Part shown: positions 38,716 through 63,587 of the stretch, piece after piece
How the letters are laid out: each line of letters opens with the position of its first letter
Numbering within the stretch: the first letter of the stretch is position 1
Origin: Cymodocea nodosa
Lineage: Eukaryota; Streptophyta; Magnoliopsida; Alismatales; Cymodoceaceae
NCBI GenBank assembly: GCA_036874045.1
Contig: CM072341.1
Coordinates: forward strand, 16,690,501-16,754,500
DNA length: 64,000 bases
Reading direction: 5' to 3'
Made by a program: the position numbers and the translations under genes
Notes under the pieces: model-generated
The model's input: only the letters and a program-made list of their open reading frames with translations
The model's database searches: none
Told to the model about the DNA's origin: nothing

Positions 38716-39322
38716 TTAAGGCAACGGAATCGGGATCCGGCTCGGAGATCCAGGTATCGGAAACATCGGAGGTTTAGGTATCGGAAACATCGGAGGTTTA
38801 GGAATCGGAAACATCGGAGGTTTAGGAATTGGAAACATCGGAGGTTTAGGAATTGGAAACATCGGAGGTTTAGGTATCGGAAACATCGGAGGTTTAGGAT
38901 AGGGACCTGCAAAATCATATATAACGTACGTACACAAATTAAGAACCTTCGTTTCATGCAAGGAGGAGGAGGAGGAGATGGTGGGACTGGACCTGAACAA
39001 CATAAGCAGCAGCCGTCCGGAGTGCCCGGTTGCGCGTGACCGCAGCACCGGCAGTTCGAACAACCCCGCCCGGAAGTTACACCTCGAGGTCGAGTAAAAG
39101 AAACCTGATCTGCAATAGAGAAACACCAGGACGGTAATTAATTACATCTAATTGGATTAGTAACTGCATGCATATATATATCTATATGTATGTATGTATG
39201 TAAATGTTGAGAGATGAAGAGATCGATCGACCCTGAGCGACTTTGGCAGATTCAGAGGGTAAGGACGCAGAGACGAGGAGGAGGAGGAGGAGAAGAAGAG
39301 AGAAAAGGAGGGAGGTGGCCAT
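38716..39322 (-). CDS. secreted cysteine-rich/proline-repeat peptide, copy A1
   Basis: Family not recognised. Exons on the minus strand are 39322-39232, 39109-38993 and 38906-38716 (stop TAA). Introns are 122 and 86 bases, both phase 1 with GT-AG ends, giving 132 residues. Exon 1 encodes a signal peptide (MATSLLFSLLLLLLLL, then VSASLPSES). Exon 2 holds one eight-cysteine module, CSNCRCC, ten spacer residues, then CCLCC, ending SG. Exon 3 continues PYP and then six KPPMFPIP octapeptides from a 24-bp DNA repeat, ending GSPSRIPIPLP. The model is supported because A2 has the same sites, phases and stop position with different sequence and repeat number. A secreted or wall-associated product is inferred from the signal and the proline repeats. 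If intron 2 were retained, exon 2 would read on into a PPPP run and a different frame through the repeats; the conserved stop argues against that. Confidence 0.65.
38753..38896 (-). repeat. 24-bp coding tandem repeat, six copies
   Basis: Unit GGTATCGGAAACATCGGAGG plus TTTA on the plus strand, with small changes (GGAATCGG, GGAATTGG). On the minus strand each unit encodes KPPMFPIP; the nucleotide changes leave the peptide unchanged. Confidence 0.95.
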
Positions 39323-39446
39323 GGTCACTAGCTCTGCAGGTTTGGCTGCAGCGAAGGTGATATGGCTGATCGAGTTGGGATATATTGAGGGAAACGAAGG
39401 AAATGGAATGGATGTCTACGGCACCTGAACAAGGCGACACACACAC

Positions 39447-39459
39447 ATATATATATATA
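39447..39459 (-). promoter_or_regulatory. TATA region of copy A1
   Basis: An alternating TA run about 125-137 bases before the A1 ATG. The matching site in A2 (48511-48520) sits at an equivalent distance. Confidence 0.4.
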
Positions 39460-39479
39460 CAGGAAATTGCACAACCACA

Positions 39480-40900
39480 TAAGACTCCTGGGATCCTACT
39501 TCAAGCACACATGCAGCTTCTGCCCCCACCACTACTCCAATGGGTTTATTGTTTTCGGTAATAGTCAAGATCTATGGATCTGTTCCATTAATGATCTCTT
39601 TGTTAATTTGAAGGATGCCTGTTGGTTGATATATTTCGTACGTATAAATGTACCAAGCACTGCCGACTGTAGTTGATCCACATATACTGAATTGACAAAC
39701 GATCAAAATATTCCAAAGTCTTCCGCCTCTCGTGGTCAGTAGAATGTGAATGATTGAATAATGAACATGGTACTCTCTTTCTTGTGGTGATGTTGATTAT
39801 TCAAACAAAATCCATCAATAGGTTTCAATAATGTATTCCTTTATTTAATGACATGCATGTATCTATAAATAACTTCGCCTAGGAATGGATTCTTCATGAA
39901 ACAACTGTACCCCATTGTATTTTTATTTGTGCATATATATATATACATATATACAAACAAAAGCCATTAATTTTCATGCATGGATACGGATTTCTCTGAA
40001 CGTAAATCATTTTTCAAAATGTAAACCGACGCATGAATGATCCAAAGGACAAAATTGTTTATGGACTTTTATCACGAGCTATGCAATTTCATGAAACAAT
40101 GATATTTTTAGATTGCACTATGATTTGTCCCATTCATGTGTATAATAAATTCACTAAAAGAGAAAATTATAATTCATTTTTGACAAATATAAACCACGAA
40201 TTCTAGCTTGGATTAATAAAAGGAATAATGTACCATTGAAATCTAACTTCAGATCGAGATATTCGAAGTCAACTTAATTATTTGATGTTCGTATTATATA
40301 TTGTGTCATCTAATTTTAGAGCCCAGAAGTCAGATCTGATTTCAGTTTAGACGGGTCAATTTGGCATCCGATCGGAATAATATTGGAAATAGGTTATAAT
40401 CAAAAGTCTTCATCAATAAGCAACCAATTAATTAATCACCGATTAGTACTGAGAAATGGATTCGAGTACTCATCAAATAATGGATTTACTTATTGCAGTG
40501 ACGACGATTAATCCAACTTGCATGCAGATCATGCAAATGACTGCTTCTTCGTACGCCAGTGGAAATTAATAAATTATTACCATTTGAACATATTTTTAGC
40601 TTTTACCGATTCACAAAATTATATTTTTTGAATTCTTATAAGTAAGAGCGCCCTTTGCTTCCAGTTGAAAGAAAAACGAGAATTTTAAATCTTTGAAATC
40701 GGAAAGTCAAAGGGAATGATCAAGTCGTGCACCACCTTCACACAATGGGTAATGCAGCAATGGTAGCACGAGTAGACTTTCACATGTAAGCGTTGACCAC
40801 GAGAAAGGACTATTATTTTGTGAGGGTGTTATATAATGGTTTCTACGTGAACACTCTAATTTTTTTGTCAATATCAATATTTAAACTTCAATCTCGACCG
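39480..40900. repeat. 5' flank of A1, duplicated at A2 and A3
   Basis: This stretch lines up with 48540-49860 and 55250-56350. Shared landmarks include CACATGCAGCTTCTGCCCC, GGTTTCATTAATG-like words, GTTTGATGTTCGTATTA, CCAGAAGTCAGATCTGATTT, GGGTCAA and CATCCGAT, and TGAGAAATGGATTCGAGTAC. It is noncoding and marks one of three copies of the A unit. Confidence 0.75.
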
Positions 40901-41339
40901 TACACGTGCCCAAACAGACGTACGGTGTGGGATTTTGAGTTTTAAAAAGAAATGTAAATACACATATTTAGTAGTGGTGCATGAGAGGCTTTCTTGTGCA
41001 TCATTGAAAATTTCTAATTTTATCTTACGAATCGACAACGAATTTGCCATCATTCCACATGACCTACCGTATGTCATCAATATTCATGCTAAACTTGTGT
41101 CGTTCAATCTTGTGTGGAAGTTTTAGCAATGGAAAGCCCTGAGTTGTATTTGAGGTTTTTCTAGCTTGTAAAATGGTAGAATATTATGTATATATTGGTG
41201 TACCATTTATTGAAATATAATGTAAGATTTGACCAGCATAGGCTAATTCGTGGTCTCGTGGATTTTACACATGACAGTGAAAAGGTTTTCTACGTAAATC
41301 ATTCATTATCTTCTCTGTGACTTTTAACAATTCCCATTT

Positions 41340-41830
41340 ACGCGTGAACCATACTCGAGCAGTGCTTTACCGAGTCAAACATGAGCAACTTAACAAGCTG
41401 AGAAGAACTTACATGGTATTTTATATTTTCGCGAAGAATGTCTAACTAACTATTCTTTTATAGATTATTATAAAATATGCGCTATGAATAATGATAAATT
41501 CTGTTAATAATTAATCAAGCAAGTAGATCATAATAAACTCAAGCCTACAAATATATACCATACAATTCAAAAACAAACAAGCCGAATATAACCGAATTAA
41601 GCTGGGCCGAACTGACAATGTTTAGCTCGGCTTATTTAATTATTTGAAGGAGTTTAAAACAAAGTTCAACCACAAGGTGCACACATTTACAATTAAAACA
41701 AGTTCAAACCAAACTCTCATTGAGACGACCGGGAGCACTTCAACTAGCTAGCTAGAACTCGATAAAACGCTCAACTCTTATTCAAAACACTCTTACCTTC
41801 ATAAACGATCGTTATCATTATTTAATGGCG
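41340..41830. repeat. 3' flank of B1, duplicated at B2 and near 46 kb
   Basis: Shared with 57100-57240 plus 62590-62990 (B2), and in part with 46020-46150. Landmarks are CTCGAGCAGTGCTTT, GAATGTCTAACT, TTATAAAATATG and CTCGATAAAACGCTCAACTC. At the B2 unit a copia element interrupts this flank; here the site is unoccupied. Confidence 0.75.
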
Positions 41831-42016
41831 GGTATTACTCGTACGTTCATATGCATGGCAGACGTACGTGTACGTGCAGAACAGTCGCAAGCTTCAATGG
41901 ATGGTTCGTTCATTTGCAACTCGCGCATTTCGGATCCCAGGGTATGGTCATGGATGGAGATCGAACTTCAGGTAGTGGTCTCGGTCGGGCCGGTTGAGGA
42001 GGTAGGGCGGCCGGAC

Positions 42017-42351
42017 CTGGACAGCAACGGCAGCAACCGTTCAGAGGCTTAGGACCGCAGCAATATGCACTTTGGGCAGTCTGCTGGTTCATCCACACGT
42101 GCAAGCGGTGAAAACAATATCAGTCAGTACGTACGTAGTAATAATTAAGAAAATAGCATGCATGGCGTGTGTGTGGATCGATGTATCATTCATCTGATCA
42201 AAAGTGATCGATGACTGGAAGGACCTTTAGGAAGCCTAGAGCAAGCTTCGCATGTGGGAGTAGCAGAAAAGAGGAGAACAAGGAGGAGAAGAAGAAGAAG
42301 AAGAAGAGATGAGAGGAGGCAGGCGGCCATCTGCAGGGATTTGGCAGCCAT
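42017..42351 (-). pseudogene. secreted cysteine-rich peptide, broken copy B1
   Basis: Exon 1 (42351-42225) is open and encodes a signal peptide very like that of B2 (MAAKSLQMAACLLSS, then a Leu run and TCEAC), with a phase 1 donor. The exon 2 equivalent (42092-42017) has three faults against B2: the acceptor AG is GG, an extra T shifts the frame inside the cysteine module after CPKC, and exon 3 is missing. A deletion runs from the exon 3 stop region (near 41925) into intron 2. The CCGPKPLNGCCRCC segment is still readable. It is a pseudogene unless alternative splicing rescues it; the obvious alternative acceptor leads to an early stop. Confidence 0.65.
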
Positions 42352-42410
42352 ATTCTTGTTTGATAAACGCTGATTAATGAGGCCTAAACCGCCCACACGT
42401 ACATGCATAT

Positions 42411-42419
42411 ACATATATA
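42411..42419 (-). promoter_or_regulatory. TATA box of B1
   Basis: CTATATATG on the minus strand, about 60-68 bases before the B1 ATG; the same position carries CTATATATATAC in B2. Confidence 0.4.
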
Positions 42420-42429
42420 GCTAGGGAGA

Positions 42430-42620
42430 CATGCAGGCCACACTGGCTTGGTGCTCCACCACTTACGTACACCGGCTACTTAGGTTTATGATTAATCCGG
42501 CCGGTAGATGTCGAGGTGAAAAGGAATTGTCTTTGTCAAACTAACATGAAACAGGCATAGAGGTCTCGGTTTCATTTGAGTACATTTAATTATATGACAG
42601 TTCTTATATATTCTTCAAAT
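42430..42620. repeat. 5' flank of B1, duplicated at B2
   Basis: It matches 63655-63835 closely: GGGAGACATGCAG, GGTGCTCCACCACTTA, CCGGCCGGTAGATGTC, GGTGAAAAGGAATTGT and TTTAATTATATGACAGTT. It would include the upstream promoter of the B-type gene. Confidence 0.7.
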
Positions 42621-42829
42621 CACTAAGCAAACATGATCAAGCACGATCCCCGCCCAATATTCAAATCACTAGCAAAATATATTGTATCACTTAACTAAAA
42701 GATTGGTGAATTTTAACCGTATTGTACTTAAATGAATTGTTCGTCATTAACCAGCAGATTGTGTTAGGTTATCGCCAGGTGGTTTTAGACTATGTCGACA
42801 AATAATATTATCGATTCGAGTTATTATAA

Positions 42830-42854
42830 TAATATATATATATATATATATATA
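42830..42854. repeat. (TA)n microsatellite
   Basis: An uninterrupted run of about twelve TA units in AT-rich intergenic DNA. Confidence 0.9.
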
Positions 42855-42984
42855 GTTATTGTTATACATGTACTACTACTCCAATAAACAAACATTATTT
42901 TTGAATTTTTACTCTTTTCTATTAGAATTATTAAAAACTAAATACTATTATAACATCACTCCTGGTTAAAATGATCATATTTTA

Positions 42985-43365
42985 AAATAAAAACAAACGC
43001 AACCTTCGTCGTAGATGCTGCTCCTCAATGATACCACCCTTAACCATCCGTTGTTGGCGATGGTTTTAAACACCTTTGTCGTCCATTTCTGCACAACCCG
43101 TAAATACCTCTTTCCGTCGAAGGCCATTAATAAGTCGATTCCGTTGACATCGATCTTCCAAATGACACCATAGGATGCGACGACAATGCAGGCGGTGTCG
43201 GCTGAAGGATCTACAACGATGACAGAGGGGAAAAAGGTGAGTGAGGTTAGGAAAACGCGTTGGTGTGAACAACGAGATCGGAGATCATAAGTAGCAAGGG
43301 AAGGAGGATCGATCACGGAAGCGAGAAGGCAGCGGCTGGAGGAGCGGGTTGCCATTTTCATTTTT
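42985..43365 (-). pseudogene. NHL/SMP-30-type beta-propeller fragment, copy 1
   Basis: On the minus strand the frame reads LLASVIDPPSLATYDLRSR, then VFLTSL, FFPSVIVVDPSADTACIV and SYGVIWKIDVNG. This resembles a plant NHL/SMP-30-like family with AYDLRSRRR-x-FL and GxIWKV-x-x-DG signatures. Intervening family sequence is missing, so this is a collapsed fragment although the 128-codon frame is open. Two related fragments lie near 46.3 and 53.2 kb. The family call rests on recall of motifs only. Confidence 0.5.
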
Positions 43366-43734
43366 CCCGGTTTAGAGATTTGCGTGAGAGAAAGAAGTGG
43401 TGAGAAGGTTTAGGAGGAAACCACCGACCGACGTGCATGAAGGGAAGAGGAGAAAAATTACTGATCATACATGTACTGGACGGAGCATGCCGTAAGAGGA
43501 CGAGGAGAAGTTATCGGCTGAAAGCCAGCAGTGAGAAGAGAAGCTTCTAATGGGTTTAGGGTTTTTTTTTGTTGTCGTTGTTTTGAGGTTTTTTGAAGTT
43601 AGGTTGCGAACTAGGGAGTTGTTTTAGCCCATTCGAAGTATTTTTAGCGGTGTTTGAATTATGCAGTTTTTAACCATTTTTCATTACCACTGCATTTATA
43701 GAAATTTTCTTGATAAATATTATACAAATCGGGC

Positions 43735-43900
43735 TCGACGCGCATTTCTTGGAGTTCAAGGGAACAGATAATTGTTGCACTGATGGAAGTGGAGTATCGT
43801 GTTGTTGCTCGCTTGGCCACTAAACTTATTTAGCTCAAATCGTTACTTGTGCTCTATGCGATTGGAAACTTTTTTGGTACATTAACTTAGGTTACGTTTC
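43735..43900 (+). mobile_element. Ty1/copia RNase H scrap
   Basis: The stretch reads as decayed FLGVQGNR, then VEYR and LATKLI, corresponding to the copia RNase H segment (WSSRKQ..VA.SSAE.EYR..A). It follows the NHL-like fragment in the same arrangement as at 54000-54350, so the two were duplicated together. Confidence 0.5.
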
Positions 43901-44281
43901 TAAGAAGTTGTTTAAATCGAAGTGGTATTGTAGTTGTACTTGTACTTAAAAAAATCGTAGAAAATAGTTGAATTCAAAAGTGACGTTTGTTTAATATTTA
44001 TAAAATTTTAAAATTATCTTTCTGTACTTATTCTTTTTCAAAATGTAAATTAATTATGTATGATTACTTTGGTTATTATTTATGACATTATTTTATTATT
44101 GTACGTGATTTAATATGATGCAACGGTGTCCGCAGGAGTTGTATGGCGTTGAAGAAGAGAATGTTCACGCAATAGAAGCTCGTAGTATTGATCGAAGGTA
44201 ATCCCATCTTTGAAGGCCACACTTGTAAGGAAATGACGGTAGTCGGAGTCGAGGCCATCAGAAGGACTGTTCAGAAGTATT

Positions 44282-44953
44282 GTTGGGAGTTCAATGTATT
44301 TAACACATACTCGTCCAGATATTATGTTTGCAGCCAATCTGGTGTTAAGGTTTATGCATAGTCCTTCAATGCATCATCTTGGAACAGCAAAACGAATCCT
44401 TCGATATGTACAAGGAACAAGTGACTATGGGATCTGGTATAAATCATCCTCTAAGTTTATTTTATTTGGTTTTACTGACAGTGATTGGGCAGGTTTTGTT
44501 GATGATCGAAAAAGCACAAGTGGCTATATTTTTAATTTTGGATCAGGTGTTGTATCATGGTGTTCTAAGAAACAAGCATCTGTAGCTTTGCCTTATTCTG
44601 AGGCTGAGTATATTGCAGTATCTGTCGCTGCTTGTCAAGCTGTTTGGATGAGGAAAGTGTTGGAAGATATGAAGCAATCTTCAACTCATGCCACTGAAAT
44701 CTTTTGTGATAATAAAGCATCAATTGCCATGACTAAGAATCCAGTGTATCATGGGAGAACTAAACATATTGAATTACATCATCATTTTATTCATGATGTT
44801 GTTGGTGAAGGGGTGATTGAGATGAAGTACTGTTCAACTGAAGAACAAGTTGCAGATGGGCTTATGAAGGCACTTTCATATTCAAAGTTTATAAAATTTA
44901 GATCTATGCTTGGTGTAAAGGATTTTGCATCAAAGGAGTGTGATAATGAATGA
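44282..44953 (+). mobile_element. Ty1/copia RNase H domain, truncated element
   Basis: An open frame of about 220 codons with copia signatures in order: YLTHTRPDIMFA, LGTAKRILRYVQGT, FTDSDWAGFVDDRKSTSGY, WCSKKQASVALPYSEAEYI, FCDNKASIAMTKNPVYHGRT, HIELHHHFIHD and EQVADGLMKALS. It lacks protease, integrase and reverse transcriptase; its 5' side is cut off just before VGSSMYL. The domain itself has no stop, so the fragment may be fairly young. Its end runs into the inverted repeat at 44942. Confidence 0.85.
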
Positions 44954-45401
44954 TGCAAAATTTAAATAAGTTGGTGTGAAAAACACCAGGGCTGGTTGAT
45001 GTGTCTCTTCTCTGTGTTGGGTTCGTATGAGTGTACTGGAAGATGTGGCTGCTAGAATTTAACTGACAACAGTTATGGATGTTTGTGTGGTTTATTTTAA
45101 CCTTGAAGGGTTGTGTTGTCTAGAAAGGGTCGTGTCTGTTTAGAAAGTGTTGTGTTGTCTAGTAAATACTCATACAACCATAAACCAATACAACACTTTC
45201 TAAATAGACACGACCCTTCCTAGACAACACAACCCTTCAAGGTAAACATAAACCACACAAACATCCATAACTGTCGCCAGTTAAATTCTAGCAACCACAT
45301 CTTCCAGTACACTCATATGAACCCAATACAGAGAAGAGACGCATCAACCAGCCTTGGTGTTTTTCACACCAACTTATTTAAATTTTGCATCATTCATTAT
45401 C
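44942..45401. repeat. 212-bp inverted repeat around a 36-bp spacer
   Basis: The left arm is 44942-45153 and the right arm 45190-45401, near-perfect reverse complements with only scattered mismatches. The left arm starts in the last codons of the copia fragment and runs into its 3' noncoding sequence. The right arm continues on the minus strand from a short leader that follows a TGGTACCAGAC-like primer-binding site (near 45450), as in an internally deleted copia copy lying tail to tail with the first. A transcript would fold into a long hairpin. Confidence 0.85.
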
Positions 45402-46000
45402 AAGGATGCCATGGAAGCTGATTGGTCACAGGAAGAGGATCGATCTACGTCTGGTACCAAATGGAAAAGATGAAATGACACAATGTTTATGATTGACTTA
45501 AACCCCTAGCCAAGGCAATGAACACTATATATAGGAAGGTGTAATACAAGGAAAATGTTTCTCCATTAAAGACAATTGAATGGGATGGAGAAGCGAAAAG
45601 ATACACCAGATATTAATACCATAATTACACCAATCAACAAATCAATCGATGATTTCACACTTTGCCAACCTCTTGCAAGCCCTCAACCAGTTCGATCATC
45701 ACACCTATGCCGTTCCTAGCATATAAAGACCTCCTGACCCTCCCACGCGTAATGGTCGACCAGGGTTTCATCAGGTGGGGAAATCTGCGGGCGAACAGAT
45801 CCCAGAAGATAGTACTAACAGAGGCTGTTTTGCAGTCTTGTGTGTTATTAGTAGGTTTATTATAAGAAGAGAGACAGGATATTCATGTCTACACAAATTT
45901 AATCTTTGTTAGTTGAACTGAAATAAGGCTTTAATTGAATTTGCCGGGGAAGGAACTTCAAGCATGATAACAAATACACACTACATCGACCGATGCCTCG
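45402..46000 (-). mobile_element. possible internally deleted copia copy (leader and LTR side)
   Basis: Read on the minus strand, this has a TATA-like CTATATATAG near 45530, a TGGTACCAGAC primer-site-like word near 45450, and then a short leader joining the right arm of the inverted repeat. The LTR limits are not clear and no protein is encoded. The sequence after 45860 may belong to the array flank. Confidence 0.35.
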
Positions 46001-46289
46001 ATGAGTATATTATTCGTCAATTCACTTGTAAGAGTGATAATCGATTATTTCTCAAACCTATGCTCATAGAAAGATAATTTATATAGGATTTTATATTTCT
46101 GCAAAGGATGTCTAACTATTCTTTTATAAACTATTATAAAATATACATTGCGAATGAGTATAAAAGTGTTTTGAACGTCTTGTTCGTAATGTATATTTTG
46201 ATAATGATCGATTATGAAAATATACATTTGAATGCCACGTCTCATTCCTATCTTTACCCCACAGAATCCACCCATCCTGACCCTCGCCC

Positions 46290-46620
46290 ACCACCGCTGC
46301 AAATCCTTCCACTCAATTTTTCTTCTCAACAATACCACTCTTGCCCAACCATTGTCGATGTCGATCTTAGGCACCTTGCTTGTGGATTACTGCACCACTG
46401 GTAGATACCCCTTCCTGATGATGGCCATTCCGTTGATCCCACTTTCGCCGCAGACCTCCAATTTAGAGAACATGAACGTCTTTCCGTTGGCATCGATCTT
46501 GTAGATGACACCAGAGAAGGAGGCAACAATGTAGGTTGTGTTAGATGAAAGGGTGCAGGGTGACGACGGAGGGAAGAAAGGGGAGTGAGGTTAGGAAAAT
46601 GCGTTGGTGTGAGCGACGAG
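46290..46620 (-). pseudogene. NHL/SMP-30-type beta-propeller fragment, copy 2
   Basis: The minus strand reads NTTYIVASFSGVIYKIDANG, KTFMFSKLEVCGESGINGMA, IIRKGYLPVVQ, an in-frame TAA, then STSKVPKIDIDNGWARVVLL. This is the best preserved of the three copies and shows the family order (IWK(V/I)..G....S, GLNG(V/I)A, KGYLLVVQ, K(V/I)D.D.G.ARLV). The stop and flanking frameshifts mark it as dead. Confidence 0.55.
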
Positions 46621-47590
46621 GGAAGGAGGATTGGTTACAGAGGCGAGAAGGTGGTCGGCACGATTGGACTCATGCAATAGGTAGGTTGTGCCTGGACCGT
46701 ACCAGTTGATGCTCGCATTGTCTTGTATAAGGTGGGGAAGAGGGGGCTGTCATTTTCGTTGTTATTCACTTAGAAATCTGCGTGAGAGAAAGAAGCGGAG
46801 AGAAGGTTTGGGAGGAAGCTACCATCTTGCATGAAACGAAGAGGAGAAAGATTATTGATCGTGCATGTGCTGTAGGAGAGGAGCTTGACGAGAAGAAAAA
46901 GTTATCTGTTAAAAGCTATCAGTAAGAGGAGAAGCTTGCGGTGGGTTATCGACCAATATTTTTGGAGTTTTCTTCCTTAGGAAAGTTGGGTTGAAAACTA
47001 GAAGGTTGTTTTAGCCTATTCTGTGAGTATTTTTCGAAGCATTCGAAATATGCATTTTTTTAGCTATTTTTTATTATTGATGCATTTATGGATTTTTCAA
47101 TGATAAATACTGTACAAATCAGGCTGGATCTGATACTAAATAAATTTTCGATATTTTTTTGAAGCATAATAGATTATGAGTGACAACATATAAATAAATC
47201 TTGGGCGACTACCCATTGATGTTATAAAAAAGGAAGATAATTGCTACAGCAATCATAGTGGTTATTAGTTGTTATAGGTAATTTTGATCGGTTAACAACA
47301 ACCTTGTATATATTTATATGTTGTAACATCTTCGTATATAGCAGAAGTAGAGACTGCAACAATTCTTTTTTTGTCTCTGTTCTTTGTTATTTTCCATCCG
47401 GTTGTTCCATCAGTCTAGTATTCTTACACTCATATATAATTAAGATTGCTTACTGTTTAATGTAATATTATTTACCGATCTATTGGTTAAGAAATACATA
47501 ACGATTTTAGTAACAAACACACATTTGAGATTTTCTTTCCGTACTTAACAAGATCGAGAGGGATATTAAAATAAAAGATACGACATTTGC
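46620..47590. other. duplicated noncoding block
   Basis: The part to about 47110 matches 43370-43730 and 53690-53980 (for example GCGTGAGAGAAAGAAG, GAGAAGGTTT, CATGAAG/CATGAAACGAAGAGG, GCATTTATAG, TGATAAATA). No gene is supported; the remainder to the A2 unit is AT-rich. Confidence 0.55.
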
Positions 47591-47857
47591 ATGTCTATTC
47601 ATTGATGAGAACAAAAACACCAACGGAACTAAACAACGACGAGCACACCAACAACGGATTCGCGGGCATTATTCTTGCACTACACGAATGTTATTTAATT
47701 ATTTATTCACTGGTCACACAGACCACTCTCTCATTTCTACGTACCTCTTCTTGTTCCGAACGTAAACAGGTGTATCCGAGCAGCTAGCAACGACAGTGCC
47801 CGTTTGACGTTGGATTACCGCAGCACCGCACTTGGGTTAGAGGGACGGCTCCGTCGG

Positions 47858-48394
47858 TTAACGAAACGGAATCGGGATCCGGTTCGGAGATCCAGGTATC
47901 GGAAACATCGGAGGTTTAGGTATCGGAAACATCGGAGGTTTAGGAATCGGAAACATCGGAGGTTTAGGAATTGGAAACATCGGAGGTTTAGGATAGGGAC
48001 CTGCAAAATCATAAATATGTACGTACACAAATTAAGAACCTTCGTTTCATGCAAGGAGGAGGAGGAGGAGGAGGAGGAGGTGGCGGGACTGGACCTGAGC
48101 CGCAACACCTTCTGCAGCAGCCGCCCCGTGGCATGGGATCGCAGCAGATGCACCTCGGACAAAATCGAGCAACAGAAGCCTGATCTGCAATAGAGAAACA
48201 CCAGGATGGTAATTAATTACGTCTTATTGGATTAGTAACTGCATGCATATATATCTCTATATCTATGTATGTATGTATTTGTTGGGAGACGAAGAGATTA
48301 TTCAACCCTGAGCGACTTTGGCAGATTCAGAGGGGAGGGACGCAGAGAGGAGGATGAGGAGGAGTAGAAGAGAGGAGAGGAGGGAAGCGGCCAT
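47858..48394 (-). CDS. secreted cysteine-rich/proline-repeat peptide, copy A2
   Basis: Exons on the minus strand are 48394-48307, 48184-48095 and 48000-47858 (stop TAA); introns are 122 and 94 bases, phase 1, GT-AG. The product is 106 residues: signal peptide MAASLLSSLLLLLILLSAS, a short linker, the eight-cysteine module CPRCICC, seven spacer residues, CCRRCC, then GSG-PYP and four KPPMFPIP repeats, ending GSPNRIPIPFR. Against A1 the module spacer has changed completely while cysteines, signal peptide and tail are kept, which is what selection on a secreted disulfide-rich peptide would leave. The family is not recognised. Exon borders are inferred from phase and from comparison with A1 and B2. 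Confidence 0.65.
47895..47990 (-). repeat. 24-bp coding tandem repeat, four copies
   Basis: Same unit as in A1, encoding KPPMFPIP on the minus strand, but four copies instead of six. Confidence 0.95.
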
Positions 48395-48510
48395 GGTCAC
48401 TAGCTCTGCAGGTTCGGCCGCAGAGAAGTGGTAGATCGAGTTGGGCCGGATTGAAGAAAACGCAGGAAATGAAATGGATGTCCACGGCACCTGAACAAGG
48501 CGATACAGAC

Positions 48511-48520
48511 ATATATATAG
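48511..48520 (-). promoter_or_regulatory. TATA box of copy A2
   Basis: CTATATATAT on the minus strand, about 117-126 bases before the A2 ATG. The A3 flank keeps a shorter CTATATAC at the matching place. Confidence 0.45.
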
Positions 48521-48539
48521 GAGAATACACAACCTCGTA

Positions 48540-50440: not shown

Positions 50441-50559
50441 TTATATTCACCTACCATAGCCACGAGCCCCCTTCTAACTTCACCATGTTGGGAGAGTGGT
50501 GAGGCGACAGCCTCATCTTAGGTGACACCACCAACGTTGAGCTGATCTAGGGCCTGGCA

Positions 50560-50820
50560 TAAGAGGAGGGAGACCTAGTGGTAGGGAAGAACACATACAA
50601 CATGTTTCGAGGGATGAGGCTAGAGGAGAGGCTTAGGGGGGTGGGGGTGGAGGAGGTGATCATCATCAATGTGATGACAAACGTCTACTGCAAGACATCT
50701 TCAAGGAGGTATTCGTTAAGGGGTTCAGGGTGTTTTTCTCCACCAATGGGACAACAATTGCAAATAATGACTTGCACGATGCCATGCTAAAGAACATGGT
50801 GCATGAGTTCGCTTATCTAG
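50560..50820 (+). pseudogene. unidentified gene fragment
   Basis: A GC-richer stretch whose frames, allowing shifts, include [20 protein letters not shown] followed by [17 protein letters not shown]. The block looks like real protein but I cannot name a family, and it has no intact start or end. It is most likely a captured or decayed exon. Confidence 0.35.
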
Positions 50821-51116
50821 TCGATTGCAAGAGGTTGGAGTCGAGTTTCGGTTGAAAAACTTGATTCATTTTGATTCGCTTCTCTGGTCGATCACAAGAG
50901 GTTAATCTCCCTCCCTTCCTTAGGCACCTCTGCATAAATGGGTTTTCTCTTCTACGTCGATCATTGATCGCTTTGGATGGAGTGGTGGTTGTGGCTGCTT
51001 TGTTCCCTGCTTTTATTCTACGAGACGATTATTGTGTTTTGAATGGAAGGGATGTTGTAGGGTTCTTTGACTAGGATGGTTGTATCGATCGAGTGGTCGG
51101 TTCACTTTGTTTTGTG

Positions 51117-52950: not shown

Positions 52951-53214
52951 GAATATAATTCTAGTTTATAATCTATGATGGTGACTTTTCATTTCAAGGT
53001 GTTCACATAGATGATGTGACTTAGTTGCATTGTAAGTGGTCACGTCTCTTCATGAATGGTTAGTATTGAATGTAAGTGATTAGTTATGTGTATAAATGAT
53101 TGCATGCTTTAGTGTATGGGTGTGTTAGTTACGTAAGTCTTATTATAGATAAATGTAAATGTTATGTACTTGATATATCCTTTTAAGATCAGAAAGATAA
53201 TGTAGGTTCGTTAT

Positions 53215-53420
53215 TTCTTCACATTGTCGACGTAGACCTCCAATCTAGAGAACGTAGAGGCCTTTTTTTGGGATTGATCTTCCAAATGACACCATAGGAT
53301 GTGGCGGTAACGTAAGTGGCACTGGAAGAAGGATCTACAATGATGACAGAAGGGAAAAGGGTGAGTAAGGTTTGGAAAATGCGGCCAAACCGGTGATCAT
53401 AGGAAACAAGGAAAGATGAT
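53215..53420 (-). pseudogene. NHL/SMP-30-type beta-propeller fragment, copy 3
   Basis: The minus strand reads FPSVIIVDPSSSATYVTATS followed by YGVIWKI, parallel to FFPSVIVVDPSADTACIV in copy 1. It is frame-shifted beyond that. The downstream block to 53980 matches that of copies 1 and 2. Confidence 0.45.
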
Positions 53421-53999
53421 CAGTTATGAAGACAAGAACGCAATAACTGGAGTGGTCTAGAGAAATGGAGAGAGAGGAGGTACAAGTAGGGGTATAAATG
53501 AGTCAGGCCCAATCATGTCGGGCCGAGATGGTTGAGCCCGTGCCTTAGCTGCACCAATCGATACCTTGACACGGTTCGATCCAAAAAGAAAAGAGATCGA
53601 AACAGAAAAAAACTAGTCATGCTAAGTTGGCACGACGAGAGGAAGAGAGGGGAGGAGGAGGGAGTCGTCATTTTCATTTTTCCCACTTTAGAGATTTGCA
53701 TGAGGGAAAGAAGCGGAGAGAAGGTTTGAGAAGAAACTACCGTCGTGCATGAAGGGAAGAGGGGAAAAATTACTGATCGTTAATGTGCTGGAAGGAGGTT
53801 GCTGTAGGAGGTCGAGAAGAAGTTATCGGCTGAAAACCAGCTGTAAGAAGAGAAGCTTCTGATGGGTTTAGGATTTTTTTTGAGGTTTTTCTCCTTAGGA
53901 GCTTGTTTTAGCCCATTCAAAGTATTTTTTAACTATTTTTTATTACTACTGCATTTATAGAATTTTTCTTGATAAATACTATACAAACCAGGCTCGAAA

Positions 54000-54350
54000 T
54001 CCATTTCTTGGAGTTCAAGGGAACAAATAGTTGTTGCACGTTCGTCTACCGAAGTAGAGTATCATGTCGTCGCTCTCATAGCCACTAAACTTATTTAGCT
54101 CAAGTCATTACTTATTCAATTAGACTGTGAAGATCAAGTTCCTCAAACTGTTTGGTTTGATAATATTTATGCCATTTCTCTCACAAGAATCCAGTTCTTC
54201 ATGGCCAAGCGAAACATGTGGAAGTTGACATTCATTTTATTCGAGAAAAAGTTGCTGCAAACCAATTTAATGTGCTAATATACATTTCTAATATTAGTCA
54301 AGTTAGCTTATCTTTTTACAAAGAGTGTTTCTGCTACTCAGTAAGTGTAT
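54000..54350 (+). mobile_element. Ty1/copia RNase H scrap
   Basis: It reads decayed ISWSSREQIVVARSSTEVEY, then ATKLI, VWFDNIYA, NPVLHGQAKHVEVDIHFIRE and KVAANQF, with stops and one frameshift. It corresponds to the smaller scrap at 43735. Confidence 0.7.
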
Positions 54351-54980
54351 CTCAATTGCAAACTGAGCATTGCGATCAAAGCTCATAAGATTGCTTACTG
54401 TTTATTGCACTATTTACCCATCTATTGATTAAGAAACACATAACAAATTTAGTAACAAACATACCTTTAAGATTTTCTTAATTTGCGTAACAAGAGAATG
54501 GTATTAAAATAAAAGATATTACATTTGCATGACTACTCCTCGAGGGGTTAATGAAGGAGTATTGGATTAAAAAGGATGATATCTATTTGAACCTTGGTTA
54601 AAGGTTAATTGAGGGATCTTAATCAATTGTGGTTAATATCCTATAAAAGAGAAGTCGATCCGGTGAACCAAATCAGACGATATTGATAGTTTATTTTAAC
54701 TAATTGGAATATGAAATCCATGGAGACATAGGAAACAATGGACATGAATACTACCAAATAAATAATTGTATTGCAAACACAATTTGACCAGGGATGTTGA
54801 ATACCTGATATAAGTTTACCCATTTACTGACGAAAAATACCATAAGTTTTCAAGAGAGTCATAGCTACAGCCTTTTATGCTATACTTGAACATGCCGTTT
54901 AAATAGTATTGTGGATTATTTATTCATTCCTCTGATGGGGTGACGAAGTCCATTTGTTCTCTCTCTACCAACCAACTCAG
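54350..54980. other. intergenic DNA before the A3 unit
   Basis: No gene is supported. Short stretches resemble the DNA ahead of the A2 unit (for example AAGATTGCTTACTGTTTA and GATTAAGAAACACATAAC at 47440-47520). Confidence 0.5.
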
Positions 54981-55250
54981 ATCTTCTTCGCGATGGGATT
55001 GAATTACACGAACATATATAACAAGTTTCAATCGCAAGTTTTGTTCAGAAAATAAACAAATACACGAACGGAACAAGACAACCATAAAAGCACACCAACA
55101 ACAGATTAGTGGGCATTGTTCCGGCCGCAGAGAAGGTGAAGTGGTAGATCGAGTTGGGCCGGATTGAAGAAAACGCAGGAAATGGAATGGATGTCCACGG
55201 CACCTGAACAAGGCGATACAGACATGTATATAGGAGAATACACAACCTCG
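54980..55250 (-). pseudogene. A-type peptide locus with its coding region deleted, copy A3
   Basis: Left of about 55120 the sequence matches the 3' flank of A1 and A2 (AACAACAGATTAGTGGGCAT). Right of it the sequence matches their 5' flank (CCGGCCGCAGAGAAGG, then GGAATGGATGTCCACGGCAC). Relative to A2, everything from about 47672 to 48412 is missing, which removes the start codon, all three exons and the stop. The promoter-side flank continues normally to 56.3 kb. Confidence 0.75.
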
Positions 55251-56350
55251 TAAGGCTCCTACGTTAGGTACACATGCAGCTTCTGCCCCACTACCACTCC
55301 ACTGGGTTTATATTTCATTAATGAATATATGAATATTCAATTGTGATTCAAGTAGATAGGTGTGAAAGTAATAAAGAAATGAATGAGATTGATTAAATGA
55401 TGTATATAATTTTTTGTCATTTATCAATTAATTTCACCATAAGTGGTTTAATTAACGGTTAACTGTTAATCGAATTGACTTTTGTGGATCCGAGAATAAC
55501 GGTTGCCAGTTTATTTATCGAGTCCGTTAATGGAAGAAAATTCGTCTCCCAGTGAGGTCAGATAACACCCATTTCAGCTCTATCCACTCATTTATGCAAT
55601 TCCTATAACGTCTAATGATATAAACATAGTTACTGTACAACTCCTTCAAGAATTATTAAAGCAATAGCTTCTGCTGCTATCATAATAAATAGATCCCCTA
55701 ATTAAATGAGGGTTTTGAAAAGTTAGCGAGTAAGATAATTTAGAACTAATGTGCACATGCATTGCTACGTGCAACTTTGAAATAAATCCTTTGAAATAGA
55801 GTTGCCCACTCTTGTTATTATAAGTGGTTGTTGTTGTTCATCAAGCGACAATTTTGACCTTAGAATCTAGCTACTTACATTATTTAATTTTGATAAATAT
55901 AAACTAAGAATTCTAGCTTAAATTAATAAAAGAAATAACGTGTTAAAATATAACTTCAAATCGAGATAACCAAACACCAATTCAAAGTCAACTTAGTTGT
56001 TTGATGTTCGTATTACATGTTGTGTCATCTAATGTTACAGCCCGGAAGTCAGATCTGATTTCCTATCTGATGGGGGTCAACTGGGCATCCGGTTGGACTA
56101 ATGGAAATAGGTTAGCCCTAAGTCTTTATCAATAAACTAGCAATTAATCACTGATTACCACTGAAATGGATTCGAGAACACATCCATTAATAATGGATTT
56201 ACTTATTGCAGATCATGCAAATGACTGCTTCTTCGCACGCTAGTGCGAATTACTAAATTATTACCGTTTTCCACTTAGAACATATTTTTACCGATTTATA
56301 GTTTTCGAATTTTTATAAAACCGTCTTTTAGCTTTCCGTTGAAAACATAA
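55250..56350. repeat. 5' flank of A3
   Basis: Third copy of the A-unit flank, aligned with 39480 and 48540, with small indels. No gene is present. Confidence 0.75.
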
Positions 56351-57239
56351 ATAGACTTCTCACGAGGAATTTTAAAGAAGAATTTGTACCGTTAGGAAAG
56401 TTAGAAATTAAAAATTTTGAAAAGATTTTTTAACTTTGTTAACATTTATATTGTTTGAGAAAATTAAATTTTTAACTTTTCAATGTATAAAAGAAAAACT
56501 ATTTCTAATTTCAGACTATTTTATTTTCTTTATTTCTTGATATTTTGATTTCTATCTTTTTTTTTTTAACTTTTTAGTTCTTCCATTTCTATATTTTTTT
56601 GATATGACACAAACGAATTTTAAATCTCTAAGATTCCAAAGTAGACGTCTACTCATTCTTCCGGAGTTCTGAAATAAGAACATTCAAATTACCATGGACA
56701 TATTAATGTCCAAGACTATCATTAGGATTAAGAAAAATCGCACCTATCTAGATAAGAGAGGATAATAATGTGTGCAGCAATGCAATTCTACAGTGGTGGC
56801 TCTTGTCCGTGATGGGTACAGAATTTTAAAAGGTGGTTTTAATCATGGATCAAGGTGCAGCTGTTGAGGCCTTGTCTGAATGGCGAAATGTCATTAGATT
56901 GATCGAGTTTCAATTGGATTTGTTGACAAATTAAGGAACGATAACAACTACACAATACATTGATCGATTCCTTGATTAGGATATCATTCATCAATTCAAC
57001 TGTAATAGTGATAATCGAGTCAAATAATCAAATGGCGTTCAAGCTAGCGTTACTTGTTTATTTAAATGAATTTAAAATTATGTTCGCACTCGACCCATTT
57101 ATAAGCGATCAACTATACTCGAGTAGCGCTTTTTCGAGACAAACGTGAGCAATTTAACAAGTTGAGAAGAATTTAAAAACCTATCCTCATAGAATGATAA
57201 TTTATATAGTATTTTTTCTTTTGCAAAGAATGTCTAACT
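56350..57239. repeat. A/T-rich spacer and left part of the B2 3' flank
   Basis: From about 56930 the sequence matches 45960-46090, and from about 57100 it matches 41340-41440. It ends in GAATGTCTAACT, where the copia element begins. No gene is supported. Confidence 0.6.
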
Positions 57240-57457
57240 TGTTATCGATCATGTTGTTTCGCAGTTTGAGATTCCAATAGTGGATAATTCGAAGTATATA
57301 TTTTTTGTAAAATCACATTCATTTATAATCGTGGGGAGGATAAAACTTTCTCTACCATCTCTATCTTTAACATTCTCTCTTAATTTCTAGTAACTACTAA
57401 AAATTTAATTTCAAATTTAATTTTGAATGTTGAATTGGATCTTGGTCTTTTTGACCA
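57240..57457 (-). repeat. copia element, 3' LTR (left copy)
   Basis: About 218 bases beginning TGTTATCGATCATGTTGTTT on the plus strand and ending at GACCA. It aligns along its length with 62387-62586, with small indels and substitutions. Flanking TAACT (57235-57239) is the likely target-site duplication. Confidence 0.8.
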
Positions 57458-60400
57458 ATTCCTATCTACTACTTGATCACAAAGATCAACTATATTCGTT
57501 CATATGCTAAATCTAATAATGCATACTTTATGTTTTCATTCCGCTCCTACCATACACTGACAACATAATTTCAATCTTTCACTCTCACTAATCATGAGAA
57601 TGTTCTTCATTTCTATTATCCATAGAATATTCCTTAATCATGAGAAAGTATTTTTTTGCTAGTATCTCTTTTATCAAAGGATCAGCAATCTTTCGTAGGG
57701 ATATAACTCAATCTTATTTCTCCATTTTTTACAATATCACAAATATAGTGATAATGTATATTTATATGTTATCTTTTTGTTGTATTTGCATTACTATATA
57801 CAAGATTTATTGTTGCTTGATTATCACAATACATTTTTATTAGACCATTTATCAAATTTAGATTCAAATCATTTATGAATCTCCTTATTCAAACTACATG
57901 TGACGTAACTGTACTATAAGCAATATATTCAGCTTTCTATGTGTATTTTGCTATACACCCTTGCTTCTTACTTCCCTAAGATATAGTTGCATTTCTAAAG
58001 ATGAACACATGTCCTAAAGTGGACTTCCTATTATCTTTGTCACCACCTAAATCTACATTTGTATAACTAAGCACTTCAATCTCATTTGCTTGATAAGTCA
58101 ATTTATGGAGCAAAGTTACTTTTATATATTTTAATATTTTCTTGATAGCTTCCCAATATTTTGTTTCGAGGTTACTTTGATACATATTGACAATACTTAC
58201 AGCATATGCCAAGTCCGATCTTATACACAACATAACATACATCATACTTCCAACCACTTGAGCATAAGGTGCTCTTAAAGGTTCCTTCCCTTTTTTAGGA
58301 CATTGGTCATTACTTAATCTTTTCCTTAAAATATAAGATGTGGGAGCTAAGGAACAATTGTCTATTCTAAACATTTTTAGCACCATGCATAAGTATCTTT
58401 CTTAATTTATACTTAGTGTTCTAAATTTTCAATCACTTAAGATCTGAATTCCAAGATCATAAGATGCTTCTCCCATGTCCTTCATCTCAAATATTCTACT
58501 AAGTTCTTCCTTTGTTTTATTTAACATGTTAGTATTATTTTTAGCAAGTAAAATATCATCCACATACAAGGATAATATAATGAACTTACTCCCATTATTC
58601 CTAACATATACACAATAATCTAACTTGTTTGAAACAAATCCTATTTTGACAATTATATTATGAAACTTATGATACCATTGTCTAGATGCTTGTTTTAAAC
58701 CATATATTGACTTCTTTAATTTGCACACTTTCTCTTCATGTCCTTCCACCTAGAATCCCTCAAGTTGTGACATGTAGATTTCTTCCTACAAGTTTTCATT
58801 TAGAAATGTAGTTTTTACATTCATTTGATGTAATTCCAAATCTAAATGTACAACTATAGCCAATATAATTCTTATAGATGAGAGCTTAGCTACTAGAGAA
58901 TATGTCTTATGAAAGTCAATTTTCAATTTCTATGTATAACCTTTAGCAACTAAACAGGCCTTATATTTTTCAATAGACCCATCAACCTTTAACTTTTTCC
59001 GAAATATCCACTTGCACCCTATAGCTTTCCTTCCTTTAGGTAAATCACATAATTCCCATTCTTGATTCCATTTCATGGAATCAATCTCATCATTCATGGC
59101 ATTTAACCATAAATTTTTTTCATGAGATTCGACAACATCCTCATATGTCATAGGTTCTATGTGATTTTCCTTTATATCTATCATTAAACAAGAAAGCTCA
59201 TAGGAATACAAATGGTAGTCATCCATCCATGTTGGTTGATGTCTCATCCTTTTGTTGCTAATAGGTAAATCTGGTTCTCTATCTTCTCCATTTCTATTAA
59301 TTTCTTTAATTCCATTTATAGGCTGATTTTGGATTCCTCCCATGATTTTTATGGGTTCACAGTTGTTTCCATCAACAATTTCCATAGGTTCATCTATATT
59401 TTCAATGTTTCCTTCTCCTTCAACTCCAAGATCATTTTCTAGGACATTATTGAAATAGTTATCATTCACCACATATAGTGGTTCATGTTCCTTTCCTATT
59501 TCTTCCTTTTCATTTAGATTTTCTAGGAAAGTGGCATCCCTATATTCAATAATTCCCTTTTATTTACTATAGAACCTATAACTAAAAGAATTTTCACAAT
59601 AGCCTATAAACTTGCATTTTAGAGTCTTTGAATCTAACTTATCCTTTAATTGTTCGGGAATAAGTACATGGGCTATAGATTCCTATTTTCTTAAATGATG
59701 TAAGTTGGGCTTAGTTTTGATCTATAATTCATAAGGTGTGCTAGGTACAGACTTGGAGGGTATTCTATTTAATACATAATATGCTGTGGTTAATGCTTCT
59801 CCCCAAAAATCTTTAGAGAGACCTGAATGTGAAAGCATGCATCTAACAAAATTCAGTGTTTTGTTCTTTCTTTCTGCCACATCATTTTATTGTGGTGTAT
59901 AAGGCATTAGAATTTACCTTTTAATTCCATGCATTTCACAAAACAACTTAAATTCTTTAGAATTGTATTCCCCTCCCCTATCTGACCTTAATACCTTAAT
60001 ACTTCTTCTAAGTTGTTTTTCTACTTACAACTTGTATTTCTTAAAATAAGTCAATATTTGACTTTTGTGTCTTAATAGATAAATATAAGCATATTTGGAA
60101 AAATTTTCTATAAAAGTCACAAAATATTCCTTGTTATCATGAGTTTTAACACTTAAAGGATCACATACATCAGAATGAATTAAGCCTAATAACTCATCTG
60201 ATATATATCCCTTACTAAAGGGTTTTTTAGTCATTTTTCCAATTAAGCAATGTTGACATTTATTTAATTCCATGTCTTTAATTTCAAGCAACATGTTCAA
60301 TTTTATCAATTGTTGTATTCTAAATTTATTAACATGTATCAATCTTAAATGTCACAAATCAATTTTAGATAAATAACACACAATATAATCAAAAACTACT

Positions 60401-61689
60401 TCATTTATTTCATTAGCAATAACAGAAAGTTTAAACAAATTATGTTCCAGTACAAAAATTCTCATAGCAAAGATCTTTTTGTCTTTTCCTATGGATACAT
60501 GTTTATTGTAAAATCAAACTTCTAGACCATTCTTCAAGAGAGTGCCAACAGATATTAAATTCTACCTCATGCCAAGTCCATAGAGGACGTCTTTGAAAAT
60601 CATAATGCTGTCTCCCAAGTCCAAACGATATGTGCTAATAACTTCCACATCTAAATAAGTATTGTTACCCATATAGATACATTGTTGTCCAAGACTCAGC
60701 TCTTTAAAGGAGTCAAGTCCTTTTTTGGTTTTGGTAATGTGCTTTGTGGCACCAGAATTAATCTACCATTTGTCTGAATTAGAGGCTACAACATTATTGT
60801 ATTTCACAACTCTTACATAGGTTCTTTAGGTTCGATTTTGAGGTCCTGCTTTTATTTCCATCCTTGTTGGGACAATGTACCCTAAAATGACTAAATTAGC
60901 CACAAGCATGGTAAGATCCTCGTGGTTTTTTTCCATGTGCTTGATTTGGCTTGAAGTTGTTCCTATTTAATCCATTTCTTCTTTTATTATTTTTATCAAA
61001 TTTGTGCTTTTGAAATGTAGCTTTGACTTCTTCTAGATGAGATTCATGTTGGCTCTGTCTAACCATCATTTTCTATTTAGTACCTAACCTGGCTTGCAAT
61101 TCAAATAATTGAAGTGGGGTAGACCTAAGAAATGTCGTAACCATATTATAGTTGTGTGGCAAACTATTCAATATAGTTGTTATTTGCAGTTTTTCAAGTA
61201 TAGGAGTTCCTACAGTAGTCAAGTCTTTTGCCATTACTATCATATTATTTATATGTTCCATCACACTTTGTTCCTCTAACATTTTGCAAGAGTTATATTT
61301 TTGAAGAAGTAACTGAGTGTTCATTTTAGTTGTTTTATTATATTTTTCCTTCAAAGCATTCCATAGTGTATAAGCATTAATATAAGTTTCATATTATTTA
61401 ACAAGACAATCTTCCATAAACATGAACATCAAATTATTTGCCTTTTTATCATTTTTCCTCCATTGATTTATTCTTTTAATTTATGCTTTAGAAGTGTTTT
61501 CATCTATTTTCAGAAGATGCAAACCTATTACATGTTCAAGATCTTCATATTCTAATGTTTGATTAATTTTCTGATACCACATCTCATAATTTACCTCATT
61601 TAATTTATCCATCCTTGCCAACTCAATTGTAAACATCTTTGAAGTCATATTTATATCTACAATTGAAATCAATTTCTAATTTCAATAAT

Positions 61690-61915
61690 CAATTACTTTT
61701 GAACAAAATACAATTTTGAAAAATATGCAAATTTCAATTTTAAATTTTCAAATTTCAAAACTATTTGAATTCAAATTTCAAATTTCCAAAATCAAATTCA
61801 AATTTCCAAATTCAAATTTAAATTTCAAATTCTCAAAAATTAACTTTCAAATTTCCAAAACTATTTAAATTCAAATTTTAAATTTCCAAATTCAAATTCA
61901 AATTTTAAACTTTTC
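61690..61915 (-). repeat. AT-rich simple repeat next to gag
   Basis: Degenerate reiterations of AAATTTCAAATTCAAATTTCCAAA just upstream of the gag start of the copia element. Confidence 0.8.
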
Positions 61916-62099
61916 TTTTTAAAACATGTAATATAAATAATGACTAACAAAAATTAACAAAAAAGAAATTACAATTTTTTTATTTTCCAATATAATATAT
62001 TATATCATATCATAATGTTAAATAAAGAAGGGGGGAGTGAATATCCCTAACCGGGATCGCCCAAGGGTGAAAGACTAGAGATTCCTACAAATCGACGAT

Positions 62100-62340
62100 T
62101 ATGCGGGTGGATCGGTGATGTCGTTCGCATGTAAGTAGCAAAGGTGCGTGTGAGTGACATAGGTGCACACATGTAGTAGAGGTACGTGTGTGGGCAGCGA
62201 AGGTGCACGTGAGCGGTGGAGGTGCATGTGAGTAGTGGAGGTGCACACGAGCAGCAGAGGTGTGCACACATGCAACGAGTAGTAGAGGTGTGCGCAAGCA
62301 ACGAAGGTGCATGCAAGCAGTAGAGGAGCATGCAGACGGA
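62100..62340 (-). repeat. degenerate minisatellite in the copia leader
   Basis: Reiterated words of the type GTGAGTAGTGGAGGTGCACA and GAGCAGCAGAGGTG, period roughly 18-24 bases, between the primer-binding site and gag. It produces Cys/His/Leu-rich frames that I take as artefacts of the repeat. Confidence 0.7.
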
Positions 62341-62373
62341 GCTGTAGTGGTGGAAGAGTGGGCAGAAAAACTA

Positions 62374-62385
62374 GCTTTGATATCA
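62374..62385 (-). other. primer-binding site of the copia element
   Basis: TGATATCAAAGC on the minus strand differs at two positions from the usual TGGTATCAGAGC and sits directly inside the 5' LTR. Confidence 0.6.
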
Positions 62386-62386
62386 T

Positions 62387-62586
62387 TGTTATCAATCGTG
62401 TTGTTTCTGGGACTCCGATGGTGAATAATTCCAAGTGTGTATTCTTTGTAAAATTACACTCATTTATGATCATGAAGAGGTTAAAACTTTCTCTACCATC
62501 TATGCTCTCAACTTTCTCTCTTAATTTTCAGTAACTACTGAAAATTTAATTTTAAATGTTAAATTGGATCTTAATTTTTTTAACCA
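62387..62586 (-). repeat. copia element, 5' LTR (right copy)
   Basis: About 200 bases, TGTTATCAATCGTGTTGTTT to AACCA on the plus strand, matching 57240-57457. The following TAATT is the decayed second half of the target duplication. Confidence 0.8.
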
Positions 62587-62587
62587 A

Positions 62588-63048
62588 TAATTATCCTTTT
62601 ATAAATTATTATAAAATATACAGTATGAATAATTACAATAAATTACATTGATAACTTATCAAGCAAGTAGATTATAATAAGTTCAAGCCTACAAACATAT
62701 ATACTATAGAATTCAAAAACAAACAAGCCATGTATAATCGGATTAAGCAGGGTCGAACTAACAATGCTTAGGTCGTCTTATTTATTTAAAGGAGTTTAAA
62801 ACAAATTTAGTCCAACCACAGCACACATTTGTAATTAAAACAAGCTCAAACCAGGCTCTTACAGAGACGACGAGGAGCAGTTTAAGGAGCTACCACTCGA
62901 TAAAATACTCGACTCTTATTCAAAACGCATTTATCTTCATAATCGATGGCTATCATTATTTAATCGCTAGTATTACTCGTTCGTTCATTTGGATGGCAGA
63001 CGTGTACGTGCAGAACACTCAGCAGCTTCATTTTGTGACTAGCGCACT
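62588..63048. repeat. right part of the B2 3' flank
   Basis: It continues the sequence cut by the copia insertion and matches 41455-41900 of the B1 unit (TTATAAAATATAC, CAAACAAGCC, CTCGATAAAAT, TCATTATTTAAT, GTACGTGCAGAACA). Confidence 0.7.
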
Positions 63049-63587
63049 TCAGCAGCAGAGACAGCACCCGTTCAACGGCTTGGGGGTGCAGCAAAGGCAT
63101 GCCGCGCACGCAATCGGTTCGGGTTGAGGCTGAGGTTTAGGGTAACCTGCATCGATGGATCGATCAAACGAAAGTGATGTCCATGAGTGTGTGTGTGTGT
63201 GTCGAGGGGTCCATGCATGCAAGGTGGCTGATTATATGTGGGAATTTAGAACCAGAGGAGGTAGGGCGGCTGGACCTGAACAGCAACGGCAGCAACCATT
63301 CAAAGGCTTAGGACCACAGCACATGCACCTTCGGCAGGCGACTGGTTTACCTACACATGTTTGCGGTGAAATTAAACATCAGTCAGAGTAGTAATAATTA
63401 AAGATAATAGCAAGCATGGCATATTTGTGGATGCATTATATATTCATCTGATCAAGATTGATCAGGAAGGACCTGGAGCAACAATGGAGGTAGCTTCGCA
63501 TGTGGTAGTTATGGAAAAGAGGAGGACGAGGAGGAGAAGAAGAGATGAGAGGAGGCAGGAGGCCATTGGAAGGGATTTGGCGGCCAT
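63049..63587 (-). CDS. secreted peptide with two eight-cysteine modules, copy B2
   Basis: Exons on the minus strand are 63587-63473, 63350-63276 and 63146-63049 (stop TGA); introns are 122 and 129 bases, both phase 1, GT-AG. The product is 95 residues. Exon 1 is a signal peptide (MAAKSLPMASCLLSS, a Leu/Val run, then TTTCEA). Exon 2 is CRRCMCCGPKPLNGCCRCC followed by SG. Exon 3 opens with YPKPQPQPEP and then repeats the module as CAACLCCTPKPLNGCCLCC, which ends the protein. Module two keeps all eight cysteines and the PKPLNG loop, so duplication within the gene is likely. Exon sites and phases are the same as in A1 and A2. No family is recognised; metal binding or disulfide-stabilised extracellular roles are possible but not shown. 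Confidence 0.7.

Follow-up and report, generated by a model that had tools for sequence, protein, structure and literature searches.

A small gene cluster in Cymodocea nodosa encoding putative secreted peptides with a cysteine-doublet module

In a stretch of 64,000 nt of the Cymodocea nodosa genome (C13:16690501-16754500, referred to here as the window; the assembly comprises 374.6 Mb in 28 contigs) we identified three short gene models, A1, A2 and B2, which are predicted to code for small proteins built around a compact module of eight cysteines. Their gene structure, the coding constraint on the modules of B2, the acceleration of the module exon over the introns in the pair A1 and A2, and the turnover of copies were calculated directly. 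We see about an even chance that these are genes for secreted disulfide-rich peptides which may serve in the apoplast as a defence against microbes or pests, and which diversify as copies arise and are lost. Secretion, the disulfide fold and the defence role are deduced from sequence.

The three genes are located on the minus strand and have a common exon order: exon 1 carries a leucine-rich leader, exon 2 the module and exon 3 a proline-rich tail. All six introns of the spliced gene models are GT-AG introns in phase 1. The same three-exon structure with identical intron phases had been claimed in an earlier note on this DNA, together with a signal peptide at each locus, and both agree with the models; the leaders were judged by eye. 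The predicted proteins have 132 (A1), 106 (A2) and 95 residues (B2). The module follows the pattern CxxCxCC-x(7,10)-CC-x(1,2)-CC, with its eight cysteines placed within 19-22 residues, and is represented by CSNCRCC-x10-CCLCC-SG in the module exon of A1 and by CPRCICC-x7-CCRRCC-GSG in that of A2. Across the six reading frames of the window, this pattern, which the note had given in the same form, was matched four times, every time inside A1, A2 or B2, and it was not matched in any of 200 order-1 Markov resamplings of the window. A proline-rich exon had been described for each locus as well. This applies fully to A1 and A2, to which the long proline-rich repeat is confined (8-residue unit PKPPMFPI, 24 nt; exon 3 of A1 reads PYPKPPMFPI...). 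B2, however, has a short PKPQPQPEP linker between two full modules, and the second module forms the end of the protein. The length differences between the exons of A1 and A2 are 3, 27 and 48 nt, all divisible by three; intron 1 measures 122 nt in both genes, and the lengths of intron 2 are 8 nt apart. The donor sites read CAG/GT in four introns and AGG/GT in two (intron 1 of A1 and of A2).

A1 and A2 are duplicates located 9 kb apart, with the broken copy B1 in between. They are identical at 80/88 positions of exon 1, 109/122 of intron 1, 57/90 of the module exon, 81/85 of intron 2 and 140/143 of exon 3. When the codons of the module exon were aligned with the cysteines as anchors, 19.2 of 67.5 replacement sites and 1.8 of 19.5 silent sites were found to differ, compared to 17 of 207 sites in introns 1 and 2. 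The replacement sites thus differ from the introns with p = 9e-5. None of the eight cysteine codons is changed, versus 14 of the 21 other aligned codons of the module exon. Between the first and the last cysteine, 10 of 11 aligned non-cysteine codons are changed, as expected from the earlier statement that the spacers vary and all eight cysteines stay. The module exon was retested over 31,104 gap placements, and the excess over the intron rate holds in all of them (largest p 2.2e-4). The lowest replacement divergence (dN) across these placements is 0.335, versus 0.087 for the introns. Diversifying selection on the module exon would be the simplest reading of this pattern.

A different explanation is that the module exons of A1 and A2 are older and not fast-evolving, and that gene conversion has made their flanks alike, which would be compatible with any functional reading. 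The module exon, at 63% identity, is flanked by introns and an exon 3 with 89-98% identity, and the repeats of exon 3 are prone to conversion. In addition, many gap placements give a silent rate of the module exon well above that of the introns (median silent divergence, dS, 0.45). In the most economical alignment, however, the silent sites of the module exon are about as diverged as the introns (0.10 vs 0.087), and we regard gene conversion as an unlikely source of the pattern.

The modules of B2 show the opposite picture of strong constraint. Silent and replacement sites were counted by the Nei-Gojobori method. The two modules differ from each other at about 11.5 of 11.5 silent sites, which means saturation, but at only 8.5 of 45.5 replacement sites (19%). 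Compared with the copy on C17 (L011), the two modules show proportions of silent differences (pS) of 0.74 and 0.56 and of replacement differences (pN) of 0.17 and 0.19. Because silent sites are saturated at a low replacement difference between the B2 modules, their frame appears to be an old one that was translated and kept by selection. The earlier note reports neither this saturation nor the acceleration of the module exon between A1 and A2, nor the decayed second modules and the relatives outside the window described below.

For the putative defence peptides the following course can be proposed. The leader would be removed and the eight-cysteine module would fold in the secretory pathway, where the CC doublets may pair, perhaps as a hairpin-like core closing the loop of 7-10 residues. 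The proline-rich tail (A1, A2) or the second module (B2) would stay attached or be cleaved in the apoplast or the wall. The residues between the cysteines would form the binding surface that meets the target. B-type modules would be held constant, and A-type modules would have changed fast following a recent duplication. The locus itself would turn over through duplication and loss. A defence role fits best to the fast change on a fixed cysteine frame, the clustering and the frequent loss. The review PMC4695807 states that plant antimicrobial peptides often vary more in the mature part than in the flanking pro-regions, and that this part is often hypervariable between conserved terminal domains. 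Going by this review, the mode of change would be a known one, unlike perhaps the scaffold. The same signature, consisting of a leader, few cysteine-framed residues and rapid replacement change, is expected for a reproductive recognition peptide, such as a ligand of the pollen coat, the pistil or the synergids that diversifies between relatives. Such ligands typically have neither a proline-rich repeat tail nor a precursor of two modules, and a reproductive role seems improbable to us. Cysteine-rich reproductive ligands are described in PMC5557327.

Several observations weigh against fast-evolving defence peptides. The ratio dN/dS of the A1/A2 module exon, which had been suggested as a check, depends on gap placement and ranges from 0.54 to 3.55 with a median of 1.03, although replacements exceed the intron rate in every placement. 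Inside the module exon alone, the difference between replacement and silent change is not significant (p = 0.14), and the acceleration is seen in one gene pair, A1/A2. The third intron base is C or T at 6/6 donors; this fits poorly to the plant donor consensus and makes the donors weak. A defence family would be expected to have more than three intact copies. The predicted structure of the A1 module exon is poor (predicted local distance difference test, pLDDT, 62.6) and used no alignment, so that its two short strands, at residues 21-24 (CCGH) and 34-36 (CLC), are a hint at most.

The models have a leader (by eye), a small chain and a conserved cysteine frame, as is typical of secreted cysteine-rich peptides. 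With the plant families of this type (defensins, thionins, hevein-like peptides, knottins and snakins) they share the leader, the small cysteine-framed domain, the variable residues between the cysteines and the clustering of genes. For the four module stretches no match was found in Pfam at E-values up to 10, and the three whole models gave two weak matches, both to the leader. Since the HMMER filters discard most matches above approximately 0.1, a very weak kinship would escape this search. The B2 protein had no match among the PDB sequences, and a profile of five modules gave one unconvincing match of 10 residues there (E 0.13). No paper carrying the letters of the module or its motif was found among the open papers searched. 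The view that the family is undescribed therefore stands for Pfam, the PDB sequences and these papers, and is limited to them. The earlier note had not recognised the module as defensin, snakin/GASA, LTP, Bowman-Birk inhibitor or metallothionein, and had named a profile match to a known family with a different gene structure as one outcome that would refute the claimed family. The Pfam result for the modules and a GASA likeness no better than that of shuffled sequences support its judgement.

The GASA/snakin family, which is called plant-specific in the abstract of PMC5658915, was considered as a possible source of the module. Its C-terminal part has the order CxxCxC-loop-CxC and resembles the module, but its 12 cysteines and KCP end are both absent from the module. 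Neither models nor modules match the GASA profile (PF02704; hmmscan, E up to 10), and the same profile finds 10 places in the genome. The A1 module matches a GASA stretch on C17 with 43% identity over 21 residues (E 1.5e-4; blastp, database of 10, composition correction off). When only the non-cysteine residues of the five modules were shuffled, 157 of 400 shuffles reached the observed sum score against GASA, and 223 of 400 full shuffles did so. Alignment by hhalign gave a probability of 3.9% and an E-value of 0.011 for one target. Descent from GASA was rejected on the shuffles and hhalign, despite the CxxCxC spacing, the blastp match and GASA genes nearby.

Other families were compared in the same way. 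Thionins, hevein-like peptides and cyclotides, compared by profile, gave no Pfam match for models or modules. The same is true for nsLTP and defensin, and the order CxxCxCC-CC-CC departs from the motifs printed in PMC8198727 for these two. The motif given there for MEG-like peptides comes nearest in its opening, CX2CXCC, which the module shares. As printed, the motif runs on as CX2CXCCX4,16CX3,4CCX4C... to twelve cysteines, whereas the module ends with CC-x(1,2)-CC, so that only the opening is shared. One subgroup of plant type 2 metallothioneins contains the string CXXCXCC, as given in a table of PMC3677015. Metallothionein was rejected, as our models open with a leucine-rich leader (by eye), differ in the rest of the cysteine order and lack a Pfam match to this family.

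It was also considered that the genes encode a small inhibitor of a protease or another enzyme, in which the loop between the CC doublets is inhibitory; it would be Bowman-Birk-like in action and not in descent. Bowman-Birk inhibitors have the spacing CxxCxC-loop-CxC and repeated domains. The module has a similar spacing, variation of its loop would alter the target, and B2 carries two modules head to tail. The additional CC doublets distinguish it, however, and no module matches the Bowman-Birk profile (PF00228) at E up to 10, though this profile finds two places, C8:3618636 and C8:3635229, which lie 17 kb apart and are unrelated to the module family. Nor can an obvious scissile site be seen in the B2 loop GPKPLNG. 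Such an inhibitor appears quite unlikely.

Further places of the family were located across the genome by protein searches and by DNA searches with B2 and A2 as queries. The eight places found are a lower bound, as the search scores best candidates only and the C17 module was not used as a query. The earlier description as a multicopy family must be qualified, since only three of the eight places (A1, A2 and B2) are intact. B1 has lost its frame within the module exon, lacks the AG of the intron-1 acceptor at the aligned place, and its second module is unrecognisable. A3 joins a promoter and leader part (5' flank included; 96% identity to A2 across 194 nt) directly to the 3' flank (81%, 67 nt). 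That the whole locus is dying and the open copies are silent remnants would agree with the few intact places and the weak donors, but it is very unlikely, because A1 and A2 keep frame, intron phases and 8 cysteines with change in the rest of the module several times faster than in the introns, and the B2 modules were under strong past constraint.

The broken copies also give insight into the history of the family. Decayed second modules were found behind the stop codons of A1 and A2, and L046, distant from the cluster, has a second-module region which keeps more cysteines than these remnants; its upstream DNA is mostly unrelated. From these remains it can be concluded that the ancestor was probably a two-module gene like B2; the 8-residue repeats would then be a gain of the A branch, which lost the second module. 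In the C17 relative (L011), a six-cysteine module is followed by an SP repeat. Its leader and module are in different frames, without a 120-nt intron between them; read by eye, it might conceivably be open through one very short intron (about 60 nt) of different phase. In a further 136 kb of C13 flank and in 60 kb around L011 no other module was found, only weak tblastn matches. Of the ten GASA genes, C17:14950274 and C13:16902062 are most similar to one another, with 76% identity versus 52% for the next best, and each is located upstream of a family site on the same strand, at a distance of about 67 kb (C17) and 148 kb (C13). From this one gene pair we take the stretches on C13 and C17 to be paralogous segments, so that the family would be older than their split. 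Paralogy would also explain the linkage to GASA genes better than common descent. The nearer flanks of the two sites showed no further shared gene on comparison. At the protein level, 60 kb surrounding L011 yielded two short matches to the window and its flanks, neither of them to a reading frame of the window; both were taken for repeats. Two more candidates were rejected. L017 (C21) appears unrelated to the family on reading. L048 (C14) shares 39-41 nt with A1 intron 1 (92-93% identity; E no higher than 1e-10, four loci searched). It was not counted, since the stretch of A1 intron 1 concerned, judged from the A1 side alone, is TACA/TATA-rich.

Table 1. Genes, broken copies and neighbouring features; positions refer to the window unless a contig is given.
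Feature	Position	Strand	Description	Evidence
A1	38716..39322	minus	exons 39322-39232 (leader), 39109-38993 (module), 38906-38716 (repeats)	spliced translation
A2	47858..48394	minus	exons 48394-48307, 48184-48095 (module), 48000-47858	spliced translation; alignment to A1
B2	63049..63587	minus	exons 63587-63473, 63350-63276 (module 1), 63146-63049 (linker, module 2, stop)	spliced translation
B1	41910..42351 (limits approximate)	minus	broken copy of B2	
A3 relic	55055..55315	minus	exons between 5' and 3' parts gone	
Decayed second module behind A1 stop codon	38645..38683	minus	CCGNPTANGHCRC	tblastn of B2, E 0.02
Decayed second module behind A2 stop codon	47787..47825	minus	CCGNPTSNGHCRC	tblastn of B2, E 0.05
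L045	C13, 16606372		promoter and leader without start codon	
L046	C1:25598230, locus ~1501-1735		3' end of A-type gene with worn second module	
L011	C17, 15017930; locus 1380-1590		family relative, broken	
TCP-1/cpn60 chaperonin gene	15981-19874		beside cluster	Pfam
Pentatricopeptide-repeat gene	33895-36039		beside cluster	Pfam
Inverted repeat	44941-45157 and 45186-45402		arms of 217 nt, spacer 28 nt	94% complementary
Copia-like reading frame	44243-44953		adjoins the inverted repeat	translation; no Pfam match
Copia-type reverse transcriptase fragment	58930-59559			PF07727 match

Besides the chaperonin and pentatricopeptide-repeat genes, the window contains a near-perfect inverted repeat, which is possibly a miniature inverted-repeat transposable element or a source of hairpin RNA, and two Copia-related sequences.

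In our best reading, the genes would encode secreted defence peptides without relatives in the databases and papers searched, with a scaffold that is possibly new and a mode of change that is known. We see somewhat less than an even chance for the more specific view that this is an undescribed cysteine-doublet scaffold, in which 8 of about 20 residues are cysteines, in which nearly the whole module save for the cysteines could be rewritten after duplication amid near-identical introns, leader and tail, and whose two-module precursor gave rise to a one-module form with a repeat tail. If expressed, the genes would enrich the secreted peptides of plants with a very compact scaffold of cysteines. 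They would also provide a clean natural case of the diversification of a module exon amid near-identical introns. Exons this short are easily overlooked by gene finders, so relatives elsewhere are perhaps present and unannotated.

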